64,000 bases of DNA from Methylosinus sp. C49. GTDB lineage: Bacteria > Pseudomonadota > Alphaproteobacteria > Rhizobiales > Beijerinckiaceae. Shown piece by piece: positions 29,606 to 46,142 of this stretch. Numbering within the stretch: the first letter of the stretch is position 1; each line of letters starts with the position of its first letter. The notes beneath the pieces were generated by a model. The model was not told the DNA's origin, made no database searches, and saw only the letters and a list, made by a program, of their open reading frames with translations. Position numbers and translations under genes: made by a program. The DNA lies in the NCBI RefSeq assembly GCF_009936375.1, contig NZ_AP022332.1, forward strand, positions 2,822,501 to 2,886,500, written 5' to 3'.

Positions 29606-30523
29606 TCAATCCGCCGCCAACGCCTTCAGCGTCTGCAGCGCCACGGAGGTCGCGGAGGAGCGGCTGTCGACGCCGAGCTTCACGAAAATGCGCTCCAAAT
29701 GCTTATGCACCGTGCGAGGCGAGATGCAGAGAATCTCGGCTATGTCGTGATTCGACTTGCCGCGCGCGAGCCAGCTCAGCACCTCCGCCTCGCGCAGCGT
29801 CAGCGCGAATTTCTGGGCCAGAAGCGCCTCGTCGCTGACGCTCTGCGGCTCGGTCAGGCGAAACAGCAGCTCGTCGCCGCCGATCTCGCAGAGAAAGGAG
29901 ATGGCGACCGGCCCCGCCGCCGCGGACGCATCATGGTCGCGGCGTTCGGCCGCTTCGCGCAACAACGCCGCAAAAGCCTCCGGCGGCTGCGAGCGCAAAA
30001 TCTCGAAGGGGCCGAGACGCGCCGCGAGAAGATCGGCCGCCTGCGGCGTGCACCAGAGCAGGCGTCCGTCGCGATCCGTGGCCAGGAGATGGCGCCCCGT
30101 CGCGTCCAGCGCCACGCGTGCGCCGAAGGCGGCCTTGGCGTTGGAGACGTGAATGCGAATGCGGGCGACGAGCTCCTCTATGATGACCGGCTTCACCACA
30201 TAATCGACGCCGCCCGCCTCGAGCCCCATGAGCACATGGCTCGTGTCCTTGAGTCCGGTGAGGAAGATCACCGGCAGATGCGCGAAGCGCGGATTCTGCT
30301 TTATGCGCCGGCAGGTCGCAAAACCGTCGAGGCCGGACATCACCGCGTCGAGCACGACGACATTCGGCGCCACGCGCTCGAGCAGGGCCAGCGCCGCCTC
30401 GCCATTGGTGGCGGCGAGCGCGGTGAAATCGGCGCGCTCCAGCGCCTCGACGAGCAGGCTCAGCTCGTCGCGATTATCGTCGACGACAAGCGCCGTGTCG
30501 CGCTGGCGCAGATCAGCCGACAT
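29606..30523 (-). CDS. Response regulator with LuxR-type DNA-binding domain, partner of permease-kinase
   Basis: A 305-residue regulator. The N-terminal receiver domain has DDNRDELSLL and phospho-acceptor Asp59 (NVVVLDAVMSGLDG), with the conserved Lys in YVVKPVIIEEL. A central region (about 125-235) looks like a PAS-type sensor, and the C-terminal helix-turn-helix (LREAEVLSWLARGKSNHDIA, then LCISPRTVHKHLERIFVKLG) is of the LuxR/NarL type. The start lies inside the 3' end of the permease-kinase gene (11-base overlap), so the two proteins are made together and form a cognate pair. It probably controls the divergent porin-urt-ure operon; that is inference. Confidence 0.92.
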   Translation of the reverse strand: MSADLRQRDTALVVDDNRDELSLLVEALERADFTALAATNGEAALALLERVAPNVVVLDAVMSGLDGFATCRRIKQNPRFAHLPVIFLTGLKDTSHVLMGLEAGGVDYVVKPVIIEELVARIRIHVSNAKAAFGARVALDATGRHLLATDRDGRLLWCTPQAADLLAARLGPFEILRSQPPEAFAALLREAAERRDHDASAAAGPVAISFLCEIGGDELLFRLTEPQSVSDEALLAQKFALTLREAEVLSWLARGKSNHDIAEILCISPRTVHKHLERIFVKLGVDSRSSATSVALQTLKALAAD

Positions 30524-33500
30524 GCTCGACCTCCTGCGTCAATGCGGCCTCGAGCGTCTGCGCCAGCTCCTCGAACTCGAAATTCTGCGCCATGGCGCGC
30601 AATTGGGCGATCGCGGCAGCGCGCTCCGGCGCCGCGGCCTCTATCTCGCGCAGCGCCGCCTCTATGCCGCGGCTATGGCCGACGCGGCAGAGATGCAGCA
30701 GCTTCTCGACGCTCTCGCGCGGCAAAGCGAGCGCTGCCGGCGCGAAAGGCTCCGCTCCGGGCGTGGCGCGCGCCGCGACATAGAACCAATCGAGCCCAAG
30801 CAGATTGCCGATGCGATCCAGCATTTCGGAAAATTCGATCGGCTTCACCAGAAAATCATCATGCGGCGAATCGGGGCCGCGCCGTTCCATCAGCTCATGG
30901 GCGTTGGCGGAGACCATCATGATCGGCGTCTCCGGCCCGAGCGCGTCGCGCAGACGTCGCGCCGCCTCCCAGCCGTCCATGCCCGGCATTGCGATATCGA
31001 GCATGACGAGATCGGGATTGCGCTCGATGGCGAGCGCCACGCAATCAGCGCCATTGGAAGCCGTCAGCACGTCGAAGCCGAGCCCGCCCAGCGATTGGCG
31101 CATCACATCGATATGCGTCGCCGTGTCGTCGGCGACGAGTATGGTTTTGCGCGCCCCGGCATAGCCGCGAATCTGTGGCGGCTGCTGCCCCTCCTCCGGC
31201 GACGTCGCGGCGGTGAGATAAAGACGCACGACAAAGCGGCTGCCGCGCCCGACCTCGCTCTCGACGCGCATCTCGCCGCCGATGATCTGCGTCAGCAGCT
31301 TGGTGATGGTGAGGCCGAGGCCAGTGCCGGGAATGGCGGAAACCGCCGCCATGCGGCCGCGCTCGAAGGGCGCGAAAATGCGCTGCATATCCTCCGGCAT
31401 GATGCCGATCCCCGTGTCCTCGACGATGAATTCCGCAATGTCGTTGCGATAGGAGACCTTCAGCCCGGCATGGCCGCGCTCGGTGAATTTCACGGCGTTG
31501 GAGACGAGATTGATGAGGATTTGCCGCAGGCGCTTCCTGTCGGTGCGCACATAGCGCGGCAGATCTGGGCTGCGCTCATAGCGGAAGGCGACGCCTTTGG
31601 CCGCCGCCTGCAGGCGAAACATGTCGACGAGCTGGTCCAGCGTCTCGTCGATGCGGAAGATGTCGCGCGCCACATCGAGCGAGCCGGTCTCGATCTTGGC
31701 GACGTCGAGCAATCCGTCGATGAGATTGGTGATGTGCTCCGTGCTGCGGCGGATGACGCGCACCGCGTCCTGCGGGCGATCGGTGGCGTCGCGCTCCAGC
31801 AATTGCGCATAGCCGTTGATGGCGTTGAGCGGCGTGCGTATCTCGTGATTGAGCCCCGCTATGAAACGCGTCTTGGCGATATTGGCCGCCTCCGCCGCCT
31901 CCTTGGCGCGTTGCAGCTCGGCGTCGGTGCGCTCGTGAGCGGTGATCTCCTCCTGCAGAATTTCCGTCTGGCGGCGCGTCTCCTCTTCCGCCACGCGGCG
32001 GCTCTCCTGCGCGAGCACCAATGTCCAGGCGGCGACGCCCATGACGAGCAAGAGGCCGACGAAGACGATCTCCAGCGTCGTGCGAATGATCGGCCGCGCC
32101 GACGGGCCGACGACGGCGGCGTATTGGAAATAGATCGCGCCGAGGATCGCCGCGCTCGTCACTGCGAGCAGACCGAGCACGACGAGAAAACGGCCGGCGC
32201 GCGTCGAGAAGAAGGGCAGCGAGAATCTCGGCAAAAGAGCGGAGAAAAGCGCGCGCGCCTGCGCGGCGAGCCGCGCCTGCGGCTTGCAGGCGTCCTTGCA
32301 GCGCATGTCCAGCGAGCAGCACAGCGAGCAGATCGCCGCGCCATAGGCCGGGCAGGACGCCATGTCATGCGGCTCGAACTCGTTCTCGCAGATCATGCAG
32401 CGCATGGGCTCGCGGAAGACGGTCTGCGGGCGCGCGATATAATAGCGCCCGCCGGTGGCGTAGGCGATGAGCGGCGCGAGCGAGAAAGCGACGACGAAGC
32501 CGATGAGCGCCGACAGCGGCTGCAGAGTGTCGCCGAGCAGACCATAGAGCGCCGCCGTCGAGACGATGAGCGAGCCGAGCATGGCGCCGCAGCCGACAGG
32601 ATTGACGTCATAGAGATAGGCGCGGCGAAACTCGATCTGCGGCGGGCTCAGCCCGAGCGGCTTGTCGACGACGAGATCGGCGGTCAGAGCGCCGATCCAG
32701 GCGACCGCGAAATTGGAATAGAAGGCCAGAATGCTGTCGATGACATGGCTGACGCCGAACTCCATCAACAATAGCGCCAGAGTGACGTTGAACACCAGCC
32801 AGACGACGCGGCCGGGATGGTTGTGCGTGATGCGCGAGAAGAAGTTGGACCAGGCGATGGAGCCGGCGTAGGCGTTGGTGACATTGATCTTCGTCTGGCA
32901 GACGACGACGAAGAGCCCGGTGAGCGCCAGCGCGAGGCCGGGCGAATGGACGAGGCTCGAGAAGGCAAGATAATAGATCTCGCTCGGCTGCGCCGCGCGC
33001 TCGGGCGAGACGCCGAGCGACAAGGCTTGATAGGCGAGAAACGAGCCGGCCGCGAGTTTGGCGACGCCGATCAAAACCCAGCCCGGCCCGGCCGCGAAGA
33101 GCGCGAAGCGCCAGCTGCGCGCGCCGATGCGCGCAGTCGTCGGCAGAAAGCGCAGATAATCCACCTGCTCGCCGATCTGCGGCAGCAGCGACAGCAGGAT
33201 CGAGGCGGAAAGGCCGAAGAGCCTCAGATCGAAGGAGCCGTCCAGCGCGCCGGCGGCGCCGGGAAAGGACATCCAGCCGGAGATCGCCGGCGCCCCGACC
33301 ACGATCGAGTAGGCGAAAGGCGCGATTTGCAGCACCAGCCAGATCGGCTGCGTCCACAGCTGATAGCGGCTGATGAAGCGAATGCCGAGCGCGGCGATGG
33401 GCAATATTGCGAGCGAAGAAATTGCGTAAGCGAGGCCGAGCGGAACGCCGAGGCACATTTGCAGCGCATCGGCCATGATCGTCGCCTCAATGGCGAAGAG

Positions 33501-33884
33501 GATGAAAGTGAAGCAGGCGTAGATCAGCGAGGTGACGGTGGAGCCGATGTAGCCGAAGCCGGCGCCGCGCGTCAGCAGATCCATGTCGACGCCATATTTG
33601 GCCGCGTAATGGCCGATCGGCAGGCTGGCGAGAAAGATCAGCGCGCCGACGGCGAGGATCGCCGCCATTGCGTTGGTGAAGCCGAACATCAGCGTGACGC
33701 CGCCGCCCAGCGCCTCGCAGGCGAGAAAGGAAATCGCCCCGAGCGCTGTGTTGGCGACTCGCCAAGGCGTGAAGCGGCGCGCCGCTTCCGCCGTGTAGCG
33801 CAGCGAATAATCCTCGAGCGTCTGGTCCGCGACGAACTTGTTGTAGGTCCGACGGACCGGGAAAATTCGCTGCTGCTCGCGCAT
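30513..33884 (-). CDS. NCS1-type permease fused to hybrid sensor histidine kinase
   Basis: A 1123-residue fusion. Residues ~40-480 form an NCS1 nucleobase/cation-symporter-type domain with about twelve membrane segments (e.g. WRVANTALGAISFLACEALG, RGAGFGYIGS, INVTNAYAGSIAWSNF). A cysteine cluster follows (Cys496, 499, 511, 519, 522, 523, 529 and 533). Two further membrane segments (about 565-587 and 605-625) lead to a histidine-kinase core with His680 (GLNHEIRTPLNAINGY), ATPase motifs NLVSNAVKF, EDTGIGIMPED and PGTGLGLTI, and a receiver with Asp963 (VMLDIAMPG). The C-terminal ~90 residues are helical, Hpt-like in length but without a clear His motif. The ATG at 33884 has a weak ribosome site. 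It is transcribed with a small secreted protein and a response regulator, divergent from the urea operon. A transporter-like sensor for urea or a related nitrogen compound is inferred. Confidence 0.9.
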   Translation of the reverse strand: MREQQRIFPVRRTYNKFVADQTLEDYSLRYTAEAARRFTPWRVANTALGAISFLACEALGGGVTLMFGFTNAMAAILAVGALIFLASLPIGHYAAKYGVDMDLLTRGAGFGYIGSTVTSLIYACFTFILFAIEATIMADALQMCLGVPLGLAYAISSLAILPIAALGIRFISRYQLWTQPIWLVLQIAPFAYSIVVGAPAISGWMSFPGAAGALDGSFDLRLFGLSASILLSLLPQIGEQVDYLRFLPTTARIGARSWRFALFAAGPGWVLIGVAKLAAGSFLAYQALSLGVSPERAAQPSEIYYLAFSSLVHSPGLALALTGLFVVVCQTKINVTNAYAGSIAWSNFFSRITHNHPGRVVWLVFNVTLALLLMEFGVSHVIDSILAFYSNFAVAWIGALTADLVVDKPLGLSPPQIEFRRAYLYDVNPVGCGAMLGSLIVSTAALYGLLGDTLQPLSALIGFVVAFSLAPLIAYATGGRYYIARPQTVFREPMRCMICENEFEPHDMASCPAYGAAICSLCCSLDMRCKDACKPQARLAAQARALFSALLPRFSLPFFSTRAGRFLVVLGLLAVTSAAILGAIYFQYAAVVGPSARPIIRTTLEIVFVGLLLVMGVAAWTLVLAQESRRVAEEETRRQTEILQEEITAHERTDAELQRAKEAAEAANIAKTRFIAGLNHEIRTPLNAINGYAQLLERDATDRPQDAVRVIRRSTEHITNLIDGLLDVAKIETGSLDVARDIFRIDETLDQLVDMFRLQAAAKGVAFRYERSPDLPRYVRTDRKRLRQILINLVSNAVKFTERGHAGLKVSYRNDIAEFIVEDTGIGIMPEDMQRIFAPFERGRMAAVSAIPGTGLGLTITKLLTQIIGGEMRVESEVGRGSRFVVRLYLTAATSPEEGQQPPQIRGYAGARKTILVADDTATHIDVMRQSLGGLGFDVLTASNGADCVALAIERNPDLVMLDIAMPGMDGWEAARRLRDALGPETPIMMVSANAHELMERRGPDSPHDDFLVKPIEFSEMLDRIGNLLGLDWFYVAARATPGAEPFAPAALALPRESVEKLLHLCRVGHSRGIEAALREIEAAAPERAAAIAQLRAMAQNFEFEELAQTLEAALTQEVEHVG

Positions 33885-33913
33885 GCTCACTTTACGTTGG
33901 GGCGTCGCCCGCG

Positions 33914-34252
33914 TCAGACCGGCCGAGGCTCGCCCGCCGGTCGCCAGCCCTGCGCCTCGAGACAGTCTAGCATGGGCTTGCTCAGGATCGTCGTCGAAGG
34001 CGGCGGCGACACCAGCGTCGGCCGCTCGGACTCGCCGAGCTTCTTCACGCAGGCGTCTGTGGCTTTCTTCAGGCCGCCCATATCGCCGCCGATGTTCCAC
34101 CACATGTCGACGGCGTAGCGCTGCTCGGCGATCGGCGCCGCCGCCTGCGCCTTATGGCTTTTCGACGAAGCGTTCGCCTGTCCGACCGCGACGACGAGCG
34201 CGAGCGCTCCCGCGGTCAATCCAAAAATATCCAATGCCGTGGTCTTGCGCAT
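33914..34252 (-). CDS. Small exported protein of unknown function ahead of the permease-kinase
   Basis: A 112-residue protein with a signal peptide (hydrophobic LDIFGLTAGALALVVAVGQ, cleavage near NASS). The mature part reads YAVDMWWNIGGDMGGLKKAT, continues with DACVKKLGE, and ends MLDCLEAQGWRP with two cysteines that could form a disulfide. GGGGGAGTGAGG precedes the ATG at 34252. The gap to the permease-kinase is only 29 bases, so the two are probably one operon. It could be a periplasmic accessory of the sensor. No family is recognised. Confidence 0.75.
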   Translation of the reverse strand: MRKTTALDIFGLTAGALALVVAVGQANASSKSHKAQAAAPIAEQRYAVDMWWNIGGDMGGLKKATDACVKKLGESERPTLVSPPPSTTILSKPMLDCLEAQGWRPAGEPRPV

Positions 34253-34328: not shown

Positions 34329-34347
34329 ATACGCATTTCAGCGTATT
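34328..34347. promoter_or_regulatory. Perfect seven-base inverted repeat upstream of porin gene
   Basis: AATACGC (34328-34334) and GCGTATT (34341-34347) are perfect reverse complements around a six-base spacer. The site sits between the divergent small secreted protein/permease-kinase operon and the porin-urt-ure operon. It is a plausible binding site for the LuxR-type regulator encoded next door, whose family binds such short palindromes. Confidence 0.45.
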
Positions 34348-34428: not shown

Positions 34429-35622
34429 ATGAACCAATCCCACGAAGCACTTACGGCGCGAAGGACGGCGCGCCGTCGGTCCAAGCTCGCGGCCAAGGCC
34501 GCGCCGACGCTCGCCTTGGCGGTCTGTTGTCTGATGGGGGATCAGGCGGCGCAGGCCCGTGTGGTGGTTCCGTTCGGCGACGATCAATGGGTCAGCGTCG
34601 GCTTCGGCCTGCGTCCCTTCTTCAGCGATGTGACGCGCAACCACGCAGCGGGAACCAATCCCGACCGCGTCGACCTCGAGAGCTTCCGCATCTTCTCCTC
34701 GGCGTCCTTCAATCAATATCTGAAGGCGACCTTCAACACGGAAGTCTCCAGCAACAATACGATCCAGGTGCTCGACGGCTATGGCCAGTTCGAGCCGCTG
34801 GACGAGATCAACGTCTGGGGCGGCCGCATGCTGCCGCCGAGCGACCGCGCCAATCTCGACGGTCCCTATTATCTGCTCGGCTGGTCATATCCCGGCGTCG
34901 TCTCGCGCTATCCCGGCAAGGTCTCCGGCCGCATGGACGGCGGCACGGTCTGGGGCAAGCTGTTCGAGAAACGCCTCACCTATTCATTCGGCGTCTATGA
35001 CGGCCACAATCAAATCATCGGCGCATCCAACCAATCCGGCAACCCGCTGTTCGCCGGCCGCCTCAATCTCAATCTGCTCGATCCCGATCCCGATCCCGCT
35101 TATTACACCAGCAGCACCTATTTCGGCGGCGCAGATGTGCTGGCGATCGGCGTCGCGGCGCAATATCAGCAGGACGGCGTCGGCAATCAGCTCCAGCGCG
35201 CCGACTTCACCGCCTGGAACGTCGACGTTCTCTTCGAGAAGAAGCTCGGCGAGTTCGGCGCGGCGACCTTCGAGGGCGCCTATTACCGCTACTACACACA
35301 TGGCGTGAACGACGTCGCCACCAATTTCAACAACGCCCGCTCGACCGATCTCGTCGGCGGCATTCGCCCCGGCGAAGCCTATATGGTCGGCGCCGGCTAT
35401 CTCATCCCTTACGTGATCGGATGGGGCCGCTTCCAGCCTTACTTCCGCTACCAATCCTTCCGCGACACGCTCGCCGCGACATGGGAGCGTCAATACGACA
35501 TGGGCGTCTCCTATGTGATCGACGGACACAATCTGCGCATCACGGCCAATTACGCGATCAACCAATTCACCGCGCGCAAGGACATCGACAAGTTCATCCT
35601 CGGCGTTCAGATCCAGTTCTGA
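34429..35622 (+). CDS. Outer-membrane porin preceding urea transporter
   Basis: A 397-residue outer-membrane protein. A long signal peptide (KLAAKAAPTLALAVCCLMGD, cleavage near AQA) is followed by alternating beta-strand patterns (e.g. WVSVGFGLRPFFSDVTRN, LKATFNTEVSSNN, YMVGAGYLIPYVIG) and a C-terminal aromatic end KFILGVQIQF. This is a porin-like beta-barrel, related in pattern to the porins that accompany amide and urea uptake genes in methylotrophs. GAGGGGG precedes the ATG at 34429. It ends 36 bases before urtA, so it probably gives the urea transporter its outer-membrane entry. Confidence 0.85.
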   Translation: MNQSHEALTARRTARRRSKLAAKAAPTLALAVCCLMGDQAAQARVVVPFGDDQWVSVGFGLRPFFSDVTRNHAAGTNPDRVDLESFRIFSSASFNQYLKATFNTEVSSNNTIQVLDGYGQFEPLDEINVWGGRMLPPSDRANLDGPYYLLGWSYPGVVSRYPGKVSGRMDGGTVWGKLFEKRLTYSFGVYDGHNQIIGASNQSGNPLFAGRLNLNLLDPDPDPAYYTSSTYFGGADVLAIGVAAQYQQDGVGNQLQRADFTAWNVDVLFEKKLGEFGAATFEGAYYRYYTHGVNDVATNFNNARSTDLVGGIRPGEAYMVGAGYLIPYVIGWGRFQPYFRYQSFRDTLAATWERQYDMGVSYVIDGHNLRITANYAINQFTARKDIDKFILGVQIQF

Positions 35623-35658: not shown

Positions 35659-36933
35659 ATGAAACGTAGAGTTCTGGTGAAGAGCCTCGGCATGCTCGCC
35701 GCAGGCGCGTTGCTCGCGTCGACCGCGCTCGTGCCGGCGCGCGCGGAGGATAAAGGGCCGATCAAGGTCGGCATTCTGCATTCTCTCTCCGGCACCATGG
35801 CCATCAGCGAGACCGTTCTGAAGGACACGGCGTTGATGGCGATCGAGGAGATCAACGCCAAGGGCGGCGTGCTCGGCCGCAAGCTCGAGCCCGTCGTCAT
35901 CGATCCGGCCTCCAACTGGCCGCTCTTCGCCGAAAAGGCGCGCCAACTGCTCGCTACCGACAAGGTCGCCGTCGTCTTCGGCTGCTGGACCTCGGTGTCG
36001 CGCAAATCTGTGCTGCCAGTGTTCAAGGAGCTGAACGGCCTCTTGTTCTATCCGGTGCAATATGAGGGCGAGGAGCTCGAGAAGAACGTCTTCTACACGG
36101 GCGCGGCGCCGAACCAGCAGGCCATTCCCGCGGTCGAATATCTGATGAGCAAGGCCGGCGGCGGCGCCAAGCGCTTCGTGCTGCTCGGCACCGATTACGT
36201 CTATCCGCGCACGACCAATAAGATCCTGCGCGCCTTCCTCCATTCCAAGGGCGTCGCCGACGCCGACATAATGGAGGAATACACGCCCTTCGGTCACAGC
36301 GATTATCAGACGATCGTCGCCAACATCAAGAAATTCGCCTCTGGCGGCAAGACGGCGGTGGTCTCGACGATCAATGGCGACTCCAACGTGCCCTTCTACA
36401 AGGAGCTGGGCAACGCCGGGCTCAAGGCGACGGAAGTTCCGGTCGTCGCTTTCTCGGTCGGCGAGGAGGAGTTGCGCGGCGTCGACGCCAAGCCGCTCGT
36501 CGGCCATCTCGCCGCGTGGAATTATTTCATGTCGCTGAAGAACCCCGCCAATACGGAGTTCAAGAAGAAATGGGCCGCCTACGCCAAAGCGCATGGCGTC
36601 GCCAACGCCGACAAGCCGCTGACCAATGATCCGATGGAGGCCACCTACATCGGCGTCAATCTGTGGAAGCAGGCGGTCGAGAAGGCCAAGACCACCGACG
36701 TCGATAAGGTGATCGCCGCCGTCGGCGGTCAGAAGCTCGAGGCTCCATCGGGCTTCACCGCAGAGATGGATGCGAAGAACCACCATCTCCACAAGCCGGT
36801 GTTCATCGGCGAAGTGAAGGCGGACGGCCAGTTCAATGTCGTGTGGAAGACGCCCGGCCCGGTGCGCGCGCAGCCCTGGAGCCCCTTCATTCCCGGCAAT
36901 GACAAGAAAAAGGACGAGCCGGACACGCATTGA
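35659..36933 (+). CDS. urtA: Urea ABC transporter substrate-binding protein
   Basis: A 424-residue periplasmic receptor. The signal peptide ends in ARA (about residue 29), and the mature protein begins GPIKVGILHSLSGTMAISET, which is diagnostic for UrtA/FmdD-type urea and short-amide receptors. GGAKRFVLLGTDYVYPRTTN and AAWNYFMSLKNPANTEF are further family segments. It binds urea at high affinity and delivers it to UrtBC. A strong hairpin lies between it and urtB, consistent with urtA being the most abundant product of the operon. Confidence 0.95.
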   Translation: MKRRVLVKSLGMLAAGALLASTALVPARAEDKGPIKVGILHSLSGTMAISETVLKDTALMAIEEINAKGGVLGRKLEPVVIDPASNWPLFAEKARQLLATDKVAVVFGCWTSVSRKSVLPVFKELNGLLFYPVQYEGEELEKNVFYTGAAPNQQAIPAVEYLMSKAGGGAKRFVLLGTDYVYPRTTNKILRAFLHSKGVADADIMEEYTPFGHSDYQTIVANIKKFASGGKTAVVSTINGDSNVPFYKELGNAGLKATEVPVVAFSVGEEELRGVDAKPLVGHLAAWNYFMSLKNPANTEFKKKWAAYAKAHGVANADKPLTNDPMEATYIGVNLWKQAVEKAKTTDVDKVIAAVGGQKLEAPSGFTAEMDAKNHHLHKPVFIGEVKADGQFNVVWKTPGPVRAQPWSPFIPGNDKKKDEPDTH

Positions 36934-36997: not shown

Positions 36998-38575
36998 TTG
37001 CGTATGCTCAGACTTATCGTCGGACTGCTGCTGGCGATATCCGTCGCGCCGGCCATGGCGCTCGACCGCGAGACCATCGCCCAGCTAACCGGCGGCGATC
37101 CCGACGAGCAGCACAGGGCGCTCGACGCCGCCGCCGCGCGCGGCGATCTCTCCGCCATCCCCTTTCTGCGCGATCTCCTCGCCGACCGCGTGAAGCTCTC
37201 CGGCGACAAGGCGTTCATCGTCGATGGCGACAAGGCCGTGGACGCGCTGGAGCGCACGCCCGCCGAGCTTCCCGCCGACGCCGAGGACGCCTCGACCAGC
37301 AATAGCCTGCGTCTCGCGATAGAGGAGACGATCGCGCTGATCGAGCTCGCCTCGCCCGATCACGGCGCCCGCCTAGATGCGGTGAAGCGGCTGCAGAGCG
37401 CCGATCTCGACGACGCCCGCGTCTCGCTGCTCGCCAAAGCAGAACAAAAGGAACGCGACGCCGGCGTGCGCGACGCGCTGCGCCAAATGCGCGCGCTCGG
37501 TGAATTGCAGAGCGCCGATCGCATGCAGCGCCTTGCCGCCGCGCAGGCGCTGCGCACCGCCATCTCCGGCCGCGTGCGCGAGGCGCTGAAGACGCGCCTC
37601 GCCACCGAGGAAGACGGCGAGGTGCGCGTCGCGCTGACGCGCTCGCTGCGCAATGTCGAGTCGAGCCTCGCCATCGGCGAGAATCTCGGCGTCGTCTTCT
37701 CCGGCCTCAGCCTCGGCAGCATATTGCTGCTCGCCGCGCTCGGTCTCGCCATCACTTACGGGCTGATGGGCGTCATCAATATGGCGCATGGCGAGATGAT
37801 GATGATCGGCGCCTATGCGACCTATGTCGTGCAAAATTTCTTCCGCGCGCATCTGCCCGATTATTTCCAATGGTATCTCGCCGCCGCCGCGCCGGTCGCC
37901 TTCCTCGTCGCCGCTCTCGTCGGCGTCGCAATAGAACGCACAGTGATCCGCTTTCTCTATGGCCGCGCGCTGGAGACATTGCTCGCCACCTGGGGCGTCA
38001 GCCTCATATTGATGCAGGGAGTGCGCAGCCTGTTCGGCGCGCAGAATGTGCAGGTGGAAAACCCCGCCTGGATGTCCGGCCGCGTCTTCGTCACCGATAA
38101 TCTCGAGCTGCCCTATAATCGCATCGTCATACTGATCTTCTCGGTCGGCGTGCTGCTGCTGGTCTCCTTCCTGCTGGCGCGAACGCGCCTCGGCCTCTTC
38201 GTGCGCGCGGTCACGCAGAATCGCGGAATGGCGCGCTGCGTCGGCGTCGATTCCGCCCGCATCGACACAATGGCCTTCGCGCTCGGCTCCGGCCTCGCCG
38301 GCCTCGCGGGCGTCGCGCTATCGCAGGTCGGCAATGTGGGGCCGGATCTCGGCCAACATTATATCGTCGACAGCTTCATGGCGGTGGTGCTCGGCGGCGT
38401 CGGCCAGCTCGCGGGCGCCGTCTACGCCGCGCTCGGATTGGGCGTCGCCGGCAAGATTCTCGAGAATATGGCCGGCGCCGTGCTCGCGGAGATCGCTCTG
38501 CTGATCTTCATCGTCGTCTTCATACAAAAGCGTCCGCAGGGCCTGTTCGCGCTCGGCGGCCGGCAGGCCGATTGA
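36998..38575 (+). CDS. urtB: Urea ABC transporter permease UrtB
   Basis: A 525-residue permease. A signal-like N-terminus and a soluble helical domain of about 200 residues (LDRETIAQLTGGDPDEQHRA and following) are typical of UrtB. A LivH-type permease domain follows, with GLSLGSILLLAALGLAITYG, GVINMAHGEMMMIGAYATYV and GLAGVALSQVGNVGP. TTG at 36998 is nine bases after GGAG, whereas ATG at 37004 would be 15 bases away, so the TTG start is preferred. It pairs with UrtC as the membrane channel for urea. Confidence 0.95.
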   Translation: MRMLRLIVGLLLAISVAPAMALDRETIAQLTGGDPDEQHRALDAAAARGDLSAIPFLRDLLADRVKLSGDKAFIVDGDKAVDALERTPAELPADAEDASTSNSLRLAIEETIALIELASPDHGARLDAVKRLQSADLDDARVSLLAKAEQKERDAGVRDALRQMRALGELQSADRMQRLAAAQALRTAISGRVREALKTRLATEEDGEVRVALTRSLRNVESSLAIGENLGVVFSGLSLGSILLLAALGLAITYGLMGVINMAHGEMMMIGAYATYVVQNFFRAHLPDYFQWYLAAAAPVAFLVAALVGVAIERTVIRFLYGRALETLLATWGVSLILMQGVRSLFGAQNVQVENPAWMSGRVFVTDNLELPYNRIVILIFSVGVLLLVSFLLARTRLGLFVRAVTQNRGMARCVGVDSARIDTMAFALGSGLAGLAGVALSQVGNVGPDLGQHYIVDSFMAVVLGGVGQLAGAVYAALGLGVAGKILENMAGAVLAEIALLIFIVVFIQKRPQGLFALGGRQAD

Positions 38576-38584
38576 GTTAAAGAC

Positions 38585-39706
38585 ATGCTCTACATCCCGC
38601 CTGCCCCATCGCTCTCCACGCGGCTCTTCGGCCTCGGCGGCTGGCTCGGCTTCGCAGCCGCCGCGCTCGCGATCTTCATCGCCGCGCCGCTCGCCAATCT
38701 CGTCGCGCCGGAGGGCTCCCTCCTCCATCTCTCCGACGCCTCGGTCGCGCTCATCGGCAAGCTTTTCTGCTACGCCATGCTGGCGCTCGCCATGGATCTC
38801 GTCTGGGGATATGCCGGAATCCTCAGCCTCGGCCATGGCATTTTCTTCGCGCTCGGCGGCTACGCCTTCGGCATGTATCTGATGCGCCAGATCGGTCAGG
38901 ACGGCAGCTATCATTCCGATCTGCCGGATTTCATGGTCTTCCTCGATTGGAAGGCCTATCCCTGGTTCTGGTCCTTCACCGATCATTTCGCCTATTCTGC
39001 CGCGCTCGCCATTCTCGCGCCGGCGACGCTCGCCTTCGTCTTCGGCTATTTCGCCTTTCGCTCGCGCATCAAAGGCGTCTACTTCTCCATCATCACCCAG
39101 GCGCTCACCTATGCGATGATGCTGCTCTTCTTCCGCAACGAGACCGGCTTCGGCGGCAACAACGGCTTCACCGATTTCAAGCGCATATTGGATTATCCGC
39201 TGGCGACGCCGGGAACGCGCATGATCCTCTTTACGCTGACCGGGGCCTTTCTTCTCGCGCTCATTCTCGTCTCGCGCTTTCTCGTCTCCAGCAAATTCGG
39301 CCGCGTGCTCACGGCGATCCGCGAGGCGGAGAGCCGCGTGATGTTCTGCGGCTATGACACGCTCTCCTACAAGCTCGCGATCTGGACCTTCTCGGCCGCG
39401 ATCTGCGGACTCGCCGGCGCGCTCTATGTGCCGCAGGTCGGCATCATCAATCCGAGCGAAATGTCGCCGGCCGCCTCGATCGAGATCGCCATATGGGCGG
39501 CGGTCGGCGGGCGCGGCACGCTGATCGGCCCGCTCATCGGCGCCTTTCTCGTCAATGGCGCGAAGAGCTTCTTCACCGCCGCCATTCCCGAATATTGGCT
39601 GTTCTTCTTAGGACTCCTCTTCGTGCTCGTCACTCTGCTGCTGCCCAAAGGCGTCATCGGCCTCTTCGACACGCTGGCCTCCTTCCGCAAGGAGCGCACG
39701 CGATGA
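38585..39706 (+). CDS. urtC: Urea ABC transporter permease UrtC
   Basis: A 373-residue LivM-type permease with about ten membrane segments. Family segments are GYAGILSLGHGIFFALGGYA, IKGVYFSIITQALTYAMMLL and VGGRGTLIGPLIGAFLVNG. It forms the second half of the urea channel with UrtB. It overlaps urtD by four bases (ATGA) and follows urtB after nine bases, as part of the continuous 13-gene operon. Confidence 0.95.
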   Translation: MLYIPPAPSLSTRLFGLGGWLGFAAAALAIFIAAPLANLVAPEGSLLHLSDASVALIGKLFCYAMLALAMDLVWGYAGILSLGHGIFFALGGYAFGMYLMRQIGQDGSYHSDLPDFMVFLDWKAYPWFWSFTDHFAYSAALAILAPATLAFVFGYFAFRSRIKGVYFSIITQALTYAMMLLFFRNETGFGGNNGFTDFKRILDYPLATPGTRMILFTLTGAFLLALILVSRFLVSSKFGRVLTAIREAESRVMFCGYDTLSYKLAIWTFSAAICGLAGALYVPQVGIINPSEMSPAASIEIAIWAAVGGRGTLIGPLIGAFLVNGAKSFFTAAIPEYWLFFLGLLFVLVTLLLPKGVIGLFDTLASFRKERTR

Positions 39707-40464
39707 TCGGCGAGCCGGATATCTCCAGCGGCGTCGCGCTCTATCTCGACGATGTGCAGGTCACGTTCGACGGCTATCGCGCGCTGCGCGGTCTCTCTCT
39801 GTCGATCGACACGGGCGAGCTGCGTTGCATCATCGGCCCCAATGGCGCCGGCAAGACGACGATGATGGACGTCATCACCGGCAAGACGCGGCCGGATGTG
39901 GGAACCGTCTATTTCGGACGCACGCTCGATCTCACCAAAATGAACGAGCCGCAGATCGCCGCCGCCGGCATCGGCCGCAAATTCCAGAAGCCGACCGTCT
40001 TCGAGCATTTGACCGTGTTCGAGAATCTCGAGCTCGCCATAAAGGCCGACAAGAGCGTGCGCGCCTCGCTGTTTCGCCGCATCAGCGGCGAGCAGATCGA
40101 CCGCATCGGCGAATTGCTGGAGACAGTGGAGCTCGCCGACAAGGCCAAGGAGCGCGCCGGCCTGCTCTCGCATGGGCAGAAGCAATGGCTGGAGATCGGC
40201 ATGCTGCTCGCGCAGCGCCCGCTGCTGCTGCTGCTCGATGAGCCGGTCGCCGGCATGACCGATCACGAGACGAAGCGCACGGCCGAGCTGCTGCTGACGC
40301 TCGCGGGAAAGCATTCGATCATGGTGGTGGAGCACGATATGGAGTTCGTCGGCGCCATAGCGCGCAAGGTGACGGTGCTGCACGAAGGCGCCGTGCTCGC
40401 CGAAGGCCCGCTCAGCGAGGTGCAGAGCGACGAGCGCGTCATCGAAGTCTATCTGGGGCGCTAG
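39703..40464 (+). CDS. urtD: Urea ABC transporter ATP-binding protein UrtD
   Basis: A 253-residue LivG-type ATPase. Walker A reads IIGPNGAGKTTMMDVITG, the signature region is LSHGQKQWLEIGMLL (an LSHGQ variant of LSGGQ, common in this subfamily), and Walker B is LLLLLDEPVAGMTDHE. It powers urea import with UrtE. The start is chosen at 39703 because it overlaps the urtC stop (ATGA). Confidence 0.96.
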   Translation: MIGEPDISSGVALYLDDVQVTFDGYRALRGLSLSIDTGELRCIIGPNGAGKTTMMDVITGKTRPDVGTVYFGRTLDLTKMNEPQIAAAGIGRKFQKPTVFEHLTVFENLELAIKADKSVRASLFRRISGEQIDRIGELLETVELADKAKERAGLLSHGQKQWLEIGMLLAQRPLLLLLDEPVAGMTDHETKRTAELLLTLAGKHSIMVVEHDMEFVGAIARKVTVLHEGAVLAEGPLSEVQSDERVIEVYLGR

Positions 40465-40468
40465 GAAC

Positions 40469-41167
40469 ATGCTCGAAATCAGCGGCCTCCATCAATATTA
40501 CGGCAGCAGCCATATTCTGCGCGATGTCTCCTTCACCGCGCCCAAAGGCGCCTGCACCGTGCTGCTCGGGCGCAATGGCGTCGGCAAGACGACGCTGCTG
40601 CGCAGCATAATGGGCGTCACGCCGATCCGCGGCGGCGGCATTCACTTCAATGGCCAGGATATCTCCAAGCTGTCGCCCAATCAGCGCGCCGCGCGCGGCG
40701 TCGCCTATGTGCCGCAGGGCCGCGAGATTTTCTCTCGTCTCACCGTGGAGGAAAATCTGCTGATGGGCATGGCGGTGAAGCCGGCGCGCAAAGCCGCCAG
40801 AGTGCCGAGCGAAATCTATGAGATGTTTCCCGTGCTGAAGGAGATGCTACGGCGCCGCGGCGGCGACCTCTCGGGGGGCCAGCAGCAGCAGCTCGCCATC
40901 GCCCGCGCGCTGGTCTCCGATCCCAAGCTCATCATTCTCGACGAGCCGACGGAAGGCATTCAGCCCTCCATCATCAAGCTCATCGGCGAGGTGATAAAGA
41001 GCTTGAGCCGGCGCGGCGATCTCGCCATTCTGCTCGTCGAGCAATATTATGACTTCGGCCGCGAGCTGGCGGATCATTACATGGTCATGTCGCGCGGTCA
41101 GATCGTCAAGCGAGGTCTCGGAGCCGATATGGACAAGGACAACATCAGGGATTTCGTGGCGTTGTGA
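40469..41167 (+). CDS. urtE: Urea ABC transporter ATP-binding protein UrtE
   Basis: A 232-residue LivF-type ATPase: Walker A GRNGVGKTTLLRSIMG, signature LSGGQQQQLAIARALVS, Walker B LIILDEPTEGIQPSI. GTEGIQ-type endings of Walker B are characteristic of UrtE. Its stop codon overlaps the GTG start of ureD (GTGA), which ties the transporter and urease genes into one transcription unit. Confidence 0.96.
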   Translation: MLEISGLHQYYGSSHILRDVSFTAPKGACTVLLGRNGVGKTTLLRSIMGVTPIRGGGIHFNGQDISKLSPNQRAARGVAYVPQGREIFSRLTVEENLLMGMAVKPARKAARVPSEIYEMFPVLKEMLRRRGGDLSGGQQQQLAIARALVSDPKLIILDEPTEGIQPSIIKLIGEVIKSLSRRGDLAILLVEQYYDFGRELADHYMVMSRGQIVKRGLGADMDKDNIRDFVAL

Positions 41168-41976
41168 ACGGTCCTCAACGCGCGAGGGGCCGAATAGAAT
41201 TGCGCTATGCGCAAGTTCAGGGAGCGAGCCGGTTGCGACATTTGGCGCAGGAGGCGCCGCTGAGGGCGCTGTTTCCCGCCGTCGAGCCTCATGAGGCGCC
41301 CGAGGCGACGATCGTCAACACCGGCGGCGGAGTCGTCGGCGGCGATCACTATGCGCTGGACATAGAGATCGAGGCCGGCGCCGCCTTGACGGTCACGACG
41401 CCGGCCGCCGAGAAAATCTATCGCTCCGCCGGCGCGGACGCCGAGATCGTCACGCATCTTCGTTGCGGTGCCGATGCGCAACTCGAATGGCTGCCGCAGG
41501 AGACGATCCTCTTCGACGGCGCGCGGCTGCGCCGACGCATCGACATAGAGCTCGCGCCGAGCGCGCGCTTTCTCGGCGTCGAGATCATCCTTTTCGGCCG
41601 CCGCGCGAGCGGAGAATGGCTGAGCCATGGCGCCTTGCGCGACGCCTGGATGCTACGCATCGACGGCAAGCCAGTTTGGGCCGACGCAATCGGCCTCGAG
41701 GGCGACATGACCGCGCATCGCGAAGATCGCTTCGGGCTCGGCGACGCCGCAGGCTATGCGACGGTTGTCGTCGCCGGGCCAACGGTCGCGGATTTGCTGC
41801 CGCTGGCGCGCGACTGCGCGGCCGGCGCCGCAAGCCTCGTCAATGGCATCCTGCTACTGCGCTTTCTCGAGGATGATGCGTCACGGCTGCGCCACATGCT
41901 CGTAGAGGCGCTGGCGGCTCTACGGCCGCTCGCCACCGGCGGCCGCGGCGGCGCGCCACGCCTGTGGCTCAATTGA
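41164..41976 (+). CDS. ureD: Urease accessory protein UreD
   Basis: A 270-residue accessory protein that binds apo-urease together with UreF and UreG during nickel insertion. Family segments are [36 protein letters not shown] and [18 protein letters not shown]. It starts at GTG 41164, overlapping the urtE stop codon. It precedes the structural genes, the usual order in alphaproteobacteria. Confidence 0.95.
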
Positions 41977-41992
41977 AGAGGGAGGACGCGGA

Positions 41993-42295
41993 ATGCATCT
42001 GACGCCGCGCGAAAAAGACAAGCTGCTCGTCGCCGTGGCGGCGATGGTGGCGCGCCGGCGCCTCGAGCGCGGCGCCAAGCTCAACTATCCAGAGGCGGTC
42101 GCGCTCATCACCGATTTCGTCGTCGAAGGCGCGCGCGACGGACGTTCGGTGGCGGAGCTGCGCACGCAGGGCGCCAGCGTGTTGACGCGCGATCAGGTGA
42201 TGGAGGGAGTGGCCGAGATGATCGAGGCGGTGCAGGTCGAGGCGACCTTCCCGGATGGCGTGAAGCTCGTCACCGTTCACGAGCCGATCCGATGA
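41993..42295 (+). CDS. ureA: Urease gamma subunit
   Basis: A 100-residue subunit of the (UreABC)3 enzyme, which hydrolyses urea to ammonia and carbamate. It begins [20 protein letters not shown] and includes [20 protein letters not shown], both diagnostic. Length is exactly that expected. Its stop codon overlaps the ureB start (ATGA). Confidence 0.97.
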
Positions 42296-42615
42296 TACCA
42301 GGCGAGATCATTCCCGCCGAGGGTGAGATCACCCTCAACGAAGGGCGCACGACCCTCTCGCTCACCGTCGCCAACACCGGCGATCGGCCAATTCAGGTCG
42401 GCTCGCATTATCATTTCGGCGAGACCAATAGCGCGCTGCAATTCGATCGCGCCAAGGCGCGCGGCATGCGGCTCGACATTCCCGCCGGCTCGGCGGTGCG
42501 CTTCGAGCCGGGACAAACGCGCATCGTCACGCTCGTTGCTTACGGTGGCGAGCGCGCCGTCTATGGATTCAACGGCGCGGTGATGGGACCGCTGGAGGCG
42601 CGCGATGGCGAATAA
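42292..42615 (+). CDS. ureB: Urease beta subunit
   Basis: A 107-residue subunit. It begins [18 protein letters not shown] and contains [18 protein letters not shown], the family signature. It is separate from the gamma subunit, as in most bacteria (not fused). It overlaps ureC by eleven bases. Confidence 0.97.
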
Positions 42616-44317
42616 GATTTCCCGGCGCGCCTACGCCGGAATGTTCGGACCGACAGTCGGCGACCGCATTCGCCTCGCCGATACGGAGCTGCTGATCGAG
42701 ATCGAGCGCGACTACACGATTTACGGCGAAGAGGTGAAATTCGGCGGCGGCAAGGTCATCCGTGACGGCATGGGCCAGAGCCAACGCTCCAACGCGGAAG
42801 GGGCGGTCGACACCGTCATCACCAACGCGGTGATCCTCGATCATTGGGGCATCGTCAAAGCCGATATCGGCATCGTCAATGGCCGCATCGCGCGCATCGG
42901 CAAGGCGGGAAATCCCGATGTGCAGCCCGGCGTCGATATCATCATCGGGCCGGGCACGGAGATCATCGCCGGCGAAGGCCGCATCGTCACCGCGGGCGGC
43001 ATCGACACGCATATTCATTTCATCTGCCCGCAGCAGTGCGAAGAGGCGCTGGCGAGCGGCGTCACGACGATGCTCGGCGGCGGCACAGGACCGGCCGAAG
43101 GCACGAAGGCCACGACCTGCACGCCCGGCCCTTGGCATTTGAGGCGCATGCTGCAGGCCGCCGAGGGGCTGCCGGTCAATCTCGGCTTCTTCGGCAAGGG
43201 CAACGCCAGCCGGCCACGCGCGCTCGTCGAGATGATCGAGGCCGGCGCCATCGGCCTCAAGCTGCATGAGGATTGGGGCTCGAGCCCGGCGGCGATCGAT
43301 TGCGCGCTGACCGTCGCCGACGAATTTGACGTGCAGGTCACGCTGCACAGCGACACGCTGAATGAGAGCGGCTTCGTCGAGGCGACGATCGCCGCCTTCA
43401 AGGGCCGCACCATTCACGCTTTTCATACGGAAGGCGCTGGCGGCGGCCATGCGCCGGATATCATCAAGGTGGCGGGCGAGCCCAATGTGCTCCCCTCCTC
43501 CACCAATCCGACGCGGCCCTATACGATCAACACACTCGACGAGCATCTCGACATGCTGCTCGTCTGCCATCATCTCGACCCGAAGATTCCCGAGGACATC
43601 GCCTTCGCCGAGAGCCGCATTCGCAAGGAAACGATCGCGGCGGAGGATATTCTCCACGATCTCGGCGCGCTCTCCATGTATTCCTCCGACAGCCAGGCGA
43701 TGGGGCGCGTCGGCGAGGTGATCATCCGCTGCTGGCAGACGGCCGACAAGATGCGCCGCCAGCGCGGCAAGCTCGCCGGCGACGGCGCCGGCAACGATAA
43801 TTTCCGCGCCCGCCGCTATGTGGCGAAATATACGATCAACCCCGCCATAGCGCACGGAATCGCCGATCTCGTCGGCTCGATCGAGCCGGGCAAGCTCGCC
43901 GATCTCGTGCTGTGGTCGCCGGCCTTCTTCGGCGTGAAGCCCGATCTCATATTGAAGGGCGGCAGCATTGCGATGGCGGCGATGGGCGATCCCAACGCCT
44001 CCATTCCGACGCCGCAGCCCGTGCGTTATCGGCCTATGTTCGCCGGCTTCGGCCGCAGCCTCACGCAGAGCTGCGTGACCTTCGTCAGCCGCGCCGCGCG
44101 GGAGGCCTCCATCGCGCAGAAATACGGGCTCGAGCGGCCGCTGCATGTCGTGACCAACACACGCGGCGGCATTTCCAAGCGCAGCATGATCCTCAATGAC
44201 GCGACGCCCAAGATAGAGGTCGACGCCCAGACGTACGAAGTGCGCGCCGACGGCGAGCTGCTGACCTGCGAGCCGGCCACAGTGCTGCCGATGGCGCAGC
44301 GTTATTTCCTGTTCTGA
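42605..44317 (+). CDS. ureC: Urease alpha (catalytic) subunit
   Basis: A 570-residue nickel enzyme. The dinuclear nickel site is seen as HIH (His136, His138), the carbamylated Lys219 (GLKLHEDWG), His248 ([12 protein letters not shown]) and His274 ([12 protein letters not shown]). The mobile flap carries MLLVCHHLD (Cys321, His322), and the C-terminus ends [10 protein letters not shown]. All catalytic residues are present and the length is canonical, so it should be active once matured by UreDEFG. Confidence 0.98.
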
Positions 44318-44327
44318 GGAGACAAAG

Positions 44328-44834
44328 ATGCGTGCGGCGCATAGGCTTCCCGCCGGAAGCTGGGACAAGGGTCTCGAACGCGGAACGGCGACGCTGGATT
44401 GGGACGAGCGTCATCGCCGACGCCGCAGCCTGACCAGCGATCAGGGCGAGGCTTTCCTGCTCGATCTCGCGGAGGCCGCGCGGCTCGGCGAGGGCGATGG
44501 GCTCGCGCTCGAGGACGGCTCGGTGATCCGCGTCGTCGCAAAACCAGAGCCGGTTCTGGTGATAGAAGCGGGAACAGCCGGCCTCGCGCGCCTCGCCTAT
44601 CATCTCGGCAATCGCCATCTCGCCATTCAGATTTTCGTGGATCGGCTCGTCATTCGAAACGATTCCGTCATCGCCGACATGGTCAAAGGCTTGGGAGGGA
44701 TCGTCACGCGGCGCAATCTGCCCTTCGATGCGGAAAATGGCGCCTATGGCGGGCATTCCGCGCATGGCCACGATCATCATAATCACGATCATCATCGCAA
44801 TGACCATCACGCGCATGACCATGGAAATGGCTGA
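44328..44834 (+). CDS. ureE: Urease nickel metallochaperone UreE
   Basis: A 168-residue protein with the N-terminal peptide-binding domain (TLDWDERHRRRRSLTSDQGE) and a metal-binding domain containing RLAYHLGNRHLAIQIF, whose His is the conserved nickel ligand. It has a C-terminal His-rich tail ([20 protein letters not shown]) that can hold several nickel ions. It delivers nickel to UreG. It is one of four His-rich proteins in this window. Confidence 0.95.
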   Translation: MRAAHRLPAGSWDKGLERGTATLDWDERHRRRRSLTSDQGEAFLLDLAEAARLGEGDGLALEDGSVIRVVAKPEPVLVIEAGTAGLARLAYHLGNRHLAIQIFVDRLVIRNDSVIADMVKGLGGIVTRRNLPFDAENGAYGGHSAHGHDHHNHDHHRNDHHAHDHGNG

Positions 44835-45507
44835 GCCGCGTGACTGGCTGCTGTCGCTGCTGACATTCATGTCGCCGTCCTATCCTGTCGGCGGCTTCGC
44901 CTTCAGCCACGGATTGGAGTGGGCCGTGGAAACGGGCGACGTCAGCGACCGCGGCGACCTCGAAGCCTATATCGGCGCAGCGCTGGAAGTGGGCGGCGGC
45001 TGGTGCGATCTCGTCTTTCTCGCCGCCGCGTGGCGCGCCGCGCGCGCCAATGACGCGGGCGCGCTGGACGCGATCGCCGATCTTTCCGCCGCCTGGCGCT
45101 CGAGCGCGGAGACGGCGCTGGAGTCGCGCCATCAAGGCGCGGCCTTCGCTCGCGCGACATGCGCTGCTTTTCCCGGCTCTCCGCTCGATGCGCTCGCCGC
45201 GCGGCGCGATGGCGAGATCGCCTTTCCCGTCGCTGTCAGCGCGGCGGTCGTGGACGCGCCGCTGGACGCTGCTCTGCGCGCCTACGCTCACGCCTTCGCC
45301 GCCAATCTCGTTTCGGCCGGCGTGCGGCTCATTCCGCTCGGCCAGACCGATGGGCTGCTGGCGCTCGCCTCGCTCGCGCCCACCATCATGCGCGCGGCGC
45401 GCGCCGCAGAGACGACTCCGCTCGATAGGCTCGCCACCTCCGCCCTGCGCATAGACATCGCGTCCATGCGCCATGAAACACAATATACGAGGCTGTTCCG
45501 CTCATGA
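44821..45507 (+). CDS. ureF: Urease accessory protein UreF
   Basis: A 228-residue helical accessory protein. It starts in the ureE 3' end (14-base overlap) and shows [20 protein letters not shown], the UreF signature, plus [20 protein letters not shown]. It acts as activator of UreG GTP hydrolysis in the urease maturation complex. The ATG at 44827 is an alternative two codons later. Confidence 0.94.
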
Positions 45508-46142
45508 CCGCGCCCCATTCTCCTCACGGTCCGCTGCGCGTCGGCGTCGGCGGCCCAGTCGGCTCCGGCAAGACGGCGCTGATGGACCGGCTGTGCAAAG
45601 CGCTGCGCGACAAATATCGCCTCGCCGCGATCACCAATGACATTTACACGAAGGAGGACGCGGAATTTCTCACGCGTTCCGGCGCGCTCGCGCCAGAACG
45701 CATCATCGGCGTCGAGACGGGCGGCTGCCCGCATACGGCGATCCGCGAGGACGCCTCCGCCAATCTCGCCGCCGTCGCCGAGATGAATCGCAAATTTCCT
45801 GATCTCGATCTCATTCTCATCGAGAGCGGCGGCGACAATCTCGCGGCGACCTTCAGCCCCGAGCTCGCCGATATCACGATCTATGTGATCGACGTCTCGG
45901 CCGGCGACAAGATTCCGCGCAAAGGCGGCCCAGGAATCACGCGCTCCGATCTTCTCGTCATCAATAAAATCGATCTCGCGCCTCTGGTCGGCGCCTCGCT
46001 CGAGGTGATGGATCGCGATGCCCGCCGCATGCGCGGCGAGCGGCCCTTCGTCTTCGCCAATCTGAAGGAGAATATCGGGCTCGACACGATCGCCGGCTTT
46101 ATCGAGCGAATGGGCGGCCTCAACCGCGCCGAAGCGCGATGA
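45504..46142 (+). CDS. ureG: Urease accessory GTPase UreG
   Basis: A 212-residue SIMIBI GTPase. The P-loop is [17 protein letters not shown], followed by [19 protein letters not shown], the metal-binding CPH motif in [15 protein letters not shown], and the guanine-specificity motif [13 protein letters not shown]. It carries nickel to the apo-urease complex with UreDF. It overlaps ureF by four bases and is the last gene of the operon. Confidence 0.97.

Follow-up and report, generated by a model that had tools for sequence, protein, structure and literature searches.

The window analysed here, a 64,000-nucleotide stretch of Methylosinus sp. C49 (NZ_AP022332.1, positions 2,822,501 to 2,886,500), encodes a hybrid histidine kinase with a predicted NCS1-type membrane domain at its N-terminus. 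Its gene overlaps that of a LuxR-type response regulator by 11 bases, and the pair diverges from a porin-like gene followed by the urea transporter genes urtABCDE and the urease genes ureDABCEFG, with a palindrome in between. The kinase and the regulator probably form a two-component system that senses urea or short-chain amides and controls the operon for their uptake, the sensor being presumably a repurposed NCS1-type domain.

The fusion and its locus

A preliminary description made from the letters alone had proposed a three-gene unit of a small secreted protein, the fusion and the regulator. The open reading frames and a residue check agree with it. The kinase frame starts with ATG at 33884 and ends at 30513, His680 and Asp963 are found in that numbering, and the small gene ends 29 bases ahead of the kinase start. 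HisKA, HATPase_c and the receiver of the fusion all exceed their Pfam cut-offs, and the regulator has a receiver and a LuxR-type helix-turn-helix by Pfam, making a hybrid kinase and LuxR-type pair as described. The two additional membrane segments also appear in the predicted structure, as two long helices (residues 562-639).

The small gene is where it was placed, while the word 'secreted' comes from an N-terminus judged by eye. The family search found no match for its product, and the gene lies outside the conserved unit, being present in 5 of 103 loci searched, all five from the window's genus. The divergent operon is also as described, with a few of its names less firmly assigned. UrtC matches a general permease family, UreE and the porin stay below their cut-offs (the porin's top match is the porin model ExtI, 107 against 150 bits) and UreF is named by position. 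The genes urtB to urtE span 36998-41167 and the ure genes 41164-46142, both on the plus strand (Table 1).

Table 1. Features of the locus in window coordinates
Feature	Position	Strand	Basis
LuxR-type response regulator, proposed palindrome binder	29606-30523	-	open reading frame and Pfam
Hybrid histidine kinase with N-terminal NCS1-type membrane domain, 1123 residues	30513-33884	-	open reading frame, Pfam, profile comparison, predicted fold
HisKA (His680), HATPase_c, receiver (Asp963)	30810-31877	-	Pfam
Two further long helices preceding the kinase, residues 562-639	31968-32201	-	predicted structure
Eight-cysteine module, residues 496-533	32286-32399	-	alignment of 61 relatives
NCS1-type domain, residues 1-485	32430-33884	-	profile comparison, predicted fold, residue mapping
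Small protein, 112 residues	33914-34252	-	signal-peptide-like start judged by eye
Palindrome ATACGC-N6-GCGTAT, proposed operator, between small gene and porin	34329-34346	.	matrix and pattern scan
Porin-like outer-membrane protein, opens the divergent operon	34429-35622	+	weak porin-model match
urtA, urea ATP-binding cassette (ABC) substrate-binding protein	35659-36933	+	TIGR03407
urtB	36998-38575	+	NCBIfam cut-off passed
urtC	38585-39706	+	Pfam only, general permease family BPD_transp_2
urtD	39601-40464	+	NCBIfam cut-off passed
urtE	40469-41167	+	NCBIfam cut-off passed
ureD	41164-41976	+	passes Pfam
ureA	41993-42295	+	NCBIfam cut-off passed
ureB	42292-42615	+	NCBIfam cut-off passed
ureC	42605-44317	+	NCBIfam cut-off passed
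ureE	44328-44834	+	match below its cut-offs, fits by position
ureF	44728-45507	+	by position, no match at 1e-20
ureG	45504-46142	+	NCBIfam cut-off passed

The claim of an NCS1 domain fares differently by method. Pfam, NCBIfam and PDB sequence searches with the N-terminal domain gave nothing useful. No NCS1 Pfam match appears in the kinase at E≤1 or in its whole genome at E≤0.001, and none of 21 family members matches the NCS1 model PF02133 at E≤10. The family profile aligned with 24 NCS1 proteins by hhalign gives 99.2% with E 1.6e-19 over 393 columns, and the controls (SSS, UrtB, UrtC and reversed alignments) give 0.2-1.3%. A lone permease (G270:C40) bridges the two, having 30% identity to the domain over residues 23-485 and itself matching PF02133 at 3.6e-9. 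The predicted structure, with a predicted local distance difference test score of 88.6, has CodB (1.3e-10) and Mhp1 (4.1e-10) as its top PDB matches. Because of the profile-profile comparison, the bridging permease and the predicted fold, and despite the Pfam failure, we assign the membrane domain as NCS1-type with a predicted LeuT-type fold, although it is not filed in PF02133.

For the residues, 61 aligned relatives were mapped onto Mhp1; L090 and many loci of the same genus are not included in alignment A2. Lys332 and Ile333 occupy the positions of Mhp1 Ser312 and Thr313, which we take to be hydroxyl ligands of the Na2 site, in 61/61, so the fusion family has Lys/Ile in place of these ligands. 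None of 26 NCS1 rows has Lys at the two columns, though those columns vary. Glu133, at the Mhp1 Gln121 position, is likewise invariant (61/61). The position of Trp117, presumably the stacking residue of the Mhp1 substrate site, holds Phe in 47 and Leu in 14 of the relatives, and that of Asn318 corresponds to Asn337.

All eight cysteines of the module following the domain are kept in 61/61, and we infer from the sequences that the module may bind metal. Two lone actinobacterial homologues without a kinase (L199:6881-8608 and L200:7860-9581) keep Lys332 and Glu133, so these two residues are not specific to the fusion; of the eight cysteines, one is left in L199 and five in L200. The architecture also varies. 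Near FmdA, L273:1601-5411 and L274:1513-5462 each have a non-hybrid transporter-kinase plus a separate receiver-kinase protein.

Partner operons and the palindrome

Relatives of the fusion are widespread in Proteobacteria. Matches to the domain turn up in 24 of 100 genomes, counting the window's own (with one match weak and another cut by a contig end), and, weak matches again counted, in 72 of 397 genomes sampled from the phylum. It occurs at no fewer than 582 places in GTDB species-representative genomes. Among 72,556 plasmid records, 529 carry it, and Klebsiella accounts for 342 of these. The single Klebsiella plasmid copy that was inspected (L201) faces urtABCDE and an annotated formamidase gene, and a same-genus genome (G004:C2) holds a copy at 80% identity. 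The entire arrangement recurs at locus L029 of Methylosinus trichosporium OB3b.

The main sample consists of 80 named loci, the best-scoring of at least 582. In 67 of the 71 loci with at least 3 kb upstream, a gene for a urea-type ABC binding protein is found upstream in divergent orientation, and in 60 of these it is within 600 bases. The exceptions are L051, L060, L114 and L121; in L114 urt-type genes run codirectionally behind the regulator, and in L060 a PF01425 amidase is encoded some 3 kb upstream. The kinase gene is followed by that of a similar regulator in 76/80 loci, the other four being short contigs. FmdA formamidase (assigned at 782 bits for one member) is present in 54/80, an AmiE-like gene in 22/80 and ureA or ureC in 7/80. 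Formamidase is thus the commonest linked enzyme, and urease is that of the window.

A second sample was picked from the matches in the phylum genomes for genus spread and odd architectures, with 50 loci left from 51 places once the lone permease L282 is removed; it may share species with the 80. Among these 50, a binding protein is found in 34, a urea or amide enzyme in 42 and at least one of them in 47. Sixteen loci have no binding protein, 11 of these with urease genes, and L232, L271 and L276 have neither binding protein nor urea or amide enzyme. A genome survey had been set beforehand as a refutation test of the preliminary description, and it finds the fusion far from randomly placed (67/71; 47/50). 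The usual partner is a short-chain-amide operon with formamidase or aliphatic amidase, which makes urea together with small amides the likely class of ligands.

For a shared DNA site, spaced 4+4 words were enumerated in 80 upstream regions, a set that omits 22 same-genus loci, L048, L049 and one too-short region. TACG-N8-CGTA turned up in 44 of these regions, whereas no word exceeded 25 regions in any of five shuffles, and the refined matrix has the consensus TACGTCA-N2-TGACGTA, of which the window copy is looser. The latter lies 76 bases from the start codon of the small gene and 82 from that of the porin. A site is upstream of the kinase in 75/80 loci, and also in 21/22 of the relatives' loci. 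Of the 75, 71 have it on the binding-protein side, at a median of 131 bases from the estimated start of that gene, while in L090, L109, L121 and L122, where no binding protein was detected, it is found no more than 700 bases upstream.

Since the matrix was built from most of the scored regions, the greatest weight falls on the independent tests. After block-shuffling, the loci give 4 sites in 1.57 Mb. The held-out S. meliloti and Klebsiella have one clear site each, scoring 24.6 and 26.1 against the next best 7.1 and 9.6. Displaced operons carry the site along (L043, L045, L115, L119, L127, L252, L254, L262 and S. meliloti), with L257 as an exception, where the site is near the kinase and the binding protein 1.2 kb off. 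The site is absent from all 30 urtA loci of kinase-less genomes, three of them, including L222 with about 700 bases upstream, being shortened; the best score is 9.2 upstream and 10.6 anywhere, against a threshold of 14. In the second sample it is present in 31 of the 34 loci where a binding protein was detected and in 2 of the other 16.

The site is also shared between operon types. When the matrix is trained on formamidase-type loci alone, 12 of 13 urea-type regions score higher than any negative, five displaced operons being omitted from this test. Reversely, training on 18 urea-type loci gives 55 of 56 formamidase-type loci a score above 10 (median 21), with negatives up to 11.9; these negatives are one end per locus and not always the upstream end, whereas the 30-locus test uses the correct ends.

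Within Methylosinus, the exact pattern is in 6/6 genomes with the kinase and 0/4 without, each copy at a kinase locus; the comparison is not independent because the four kinase-less genomes also have no close urtA. G008 has two kinase loci, one of urea type and one of formamidase type, and two sites, one per locus. Read backwards, the exact palindrome is also present 0-3 times per genome, so it is the position of the copies that matters and not their number.

Two other candidates were dropped. A second motif, GGCAC-N-ATGGC, is binding-protein coding sequence in most copies inspected, and sigma-54-like sites, tried as a common feature, are in just 7/80 regions. L035 has a second palindrome about 8461 bases upstream of the kinase, just upstream of a separate porin gene whose product is 46% identical to the window's porin. 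Another relative of the operon's proteins is encoded elsewhere in the window's genome (L194; G000:C1, about 1318833-1319948), where a 775-residue frame combines a chemoreceptor-like signalling half, judged by eye, with a binding domain of UrtA type that shares 48% identity with the window UrtA. Seven further Methylosinus genomes likewise have long frames with UrtA-type matches.

Sensing of urea and amides, and its rivals

The operon type can be followed on the kinase tree, made by a quick method with 84 rows (76 labelled by binding-protein type and 8 unlabelled; L023 left out). It changes 5 times, against a shuffled mean of 20, and none of 200 shuffles is as low. Urea-type operons form several separate groups among the formamidase-type ones. 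A search for pocket residues switching with urea or formamide cargo yielded conservative changes only, Leu277 being the best. Few operon-type changes with no clear pocket change are as expected for one ligand class, and a single type of receptor seems to suffice for both urea and formamide. This fits a published report of an fmd operon co-induced by formamide and urea (PMC10781810).

The palindrome ties the kinase-regulator pair to the upstream region of the operon, and a course of events can be proposed. Urea in the window, or formamide and other small amides in most relatives, would bind the NCS1 pocket. The ligand-induced change would reach the kinase by way of the cysteine module and the two added helices, and the regulator would become phosphorylated. 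A regulator dimer would then bind the palindrome and activate porin-urt-ure transcription. The preliminary description had the signal as urea or a urea precursor; urea is kept and widened to short-chain amides, and allantoin, hydantoin and purine are not supported, with no search aimed at their genes.

A more detailed version is possible rather than probable. In it, an NCS1-type transporter became a urea and short-chain-amide receptor, with the invariant Lys in place of a cation-site ligand, the invariant Glu in the substrate site and the zinc-like cysteine module and two added helices coupling the domain to the kinase. One family and one palindrome would then control both urea and formamide economies in Proteobacteria and on many Klebsiella plasmids.

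Several observations weigh against urea and amide sensing by this pair. The kinase ends in a receiver and Pfam gives no Hpt match that would provide a route to the regulator. The main sample, being the best-scoring loci, is biased to close relatives, and the negatives of the palindrome test are urtA loci only, with no formamidase-type operon of kinase-less genomes among them. Above-threshold palindromes are missing from the tested upstream range in 17 of the 50 second-sample loci, 9 of which have urease genes with no urtA detected, and from five of the 80 (L050, with only 216 upstream bases, L051, L060, L063 and L114). L051 (2303-8416) and L232 (6414-7490) have no urea genes or palindrome and adjoin chemotaxis genes, namely CheA, a methyl-accepting chemotaxis protein (MCP) and CheR in L051 and an MCP-type frame in L232. 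Moreover, the fmd operon of Methylophilus is repressed by high ammonia according to the accessible part of its report (PMC10781810), so nitrogen status also acts.

The last two points equally suit a kinase that senses ammonium, nitrogen status, pH or transport flux and has urea and amide genes only as its output. So does the sharing of pocket residues between urea and formamide operons, which a common product signal such as ammonium would also explain. We consider this unlikely, as the sensor domain is NCS1-type and not Amt and the recurrent neighbours are genes of substrate-specific uptake and hydrolysis. It is very improbable that the palindrome belongs to a different regulator of urea genes with the kinase pair acting elsewhere. 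Its binding by the regulator is a proposal from sequence, but it stays below threshold in 30/30 urtA loci of kinase-less genomes and follows the kinase through the genus, with the said caveat on urtA.

That the fusion reports an NCS1-type substrate (hydantoin, allantoin or a nucleobase) as a urea precursor, as first supposed, is the least credible, even though CodB and Mhp1, which the predicted fold most resembles, transport cytosine and hydantoins. The Trp117 position is Phe or Leu and the Gln121 position Glu in 61/61, the Mhp1 residue roles being those we assume, and the usual neighbours are formamidase and amidase. We know of no substrate of these enzymes that is a purine breakdown product. 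No identified neighbour pointed to allantoin, hydantoin or purine, with no search aimed at those genes. Sensing of urea and short-chain amides is hence the reading we keep, and the conserved sensor system is real and directly testable.

Comparison with known systems

Among the papers listed from open-licence PMC, none deals with an NCS1-type kinase or with what regulates these operons. The arrangement itself is known from annotation. In the available part of a report on Ectopseudomonas guguanensis G3, the urtABCDE operon III is annotated with histidine kinase and LuxR genes, and fmdA is in the adjoining locus-tag range (PMC13296017). A veronii strain has, in the part of the source at hand, a chromosomal amiE-fmdA-fmdB-urtABCDE cluster without amiC or amiR, and also a plasmid acetamidase operon (PMC13209695).

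The finding supplies a specific candidate sensor, regulator and DNA site for urea and amide operons. For Methylophilus methylotrophus fmdCABDEF, the accessible text describes induction by the substrates and names a putative positive regulator in the operon, with neither a membrane sensor nor a transporter-kinase named there (PMC10781810). AmiC/AmiR serves acetamidase operons and, as far as the excerpt goes, resembles the proposed system in its amide-responsive control of an amidase and ABC operon; it differs in being a binding protein and an antiterminator, whereas ours is a membrane kinase (PMC13209695).

Among transporter-type sensors, Ks-Amt5 is likewise a kinase fused to an uptake transporter that has taken on the role of sensor. 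Its domain is Amt and its ligand ammonium, and its regulator is described as yet to be identified in the part of the paper available (PMC5764959). Mhp1 and CodB, the top structural matches of the predicted model, have detectable profile homology to the fusion domain and no kinase; Mhp1 Ser312 and Thr313 are Lys and Ile in the relatives, and the stacking Trp117 is absent from them.

Related in design are CbrA and CrbS, the SLC5-STAC histidine kinases, in which a transporter domain is also fused to a histidine kinase. Their domain is SLC5, while that of the fusion is NCS1-type and scores 0.2% by hhalign against 10 SSS proteins. STAC has no match among the Pfam hits of the fusion at E≤1, with no direct fold comparison made. 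The fusion further differs by its eight-cysteine module and its partner operons. CbrA has a lysine, K196, in its Na2 site and binds CbrX, a small peptide encoded upstream (PMC13022988). Lys332 of the fusion aligns with Mhp1 Ser312, its correspondence to the K196 helix not being established, and the small gene of the window has no demonstrated likeness to CbrX. With the fusion, the small set of transporter-type sensor kinases gains an NCS1 branch. Together with CbrA, the fusion raises the question of whether a lysine in the sodium site recurs in such sensors, the lone homologues sharing it too.

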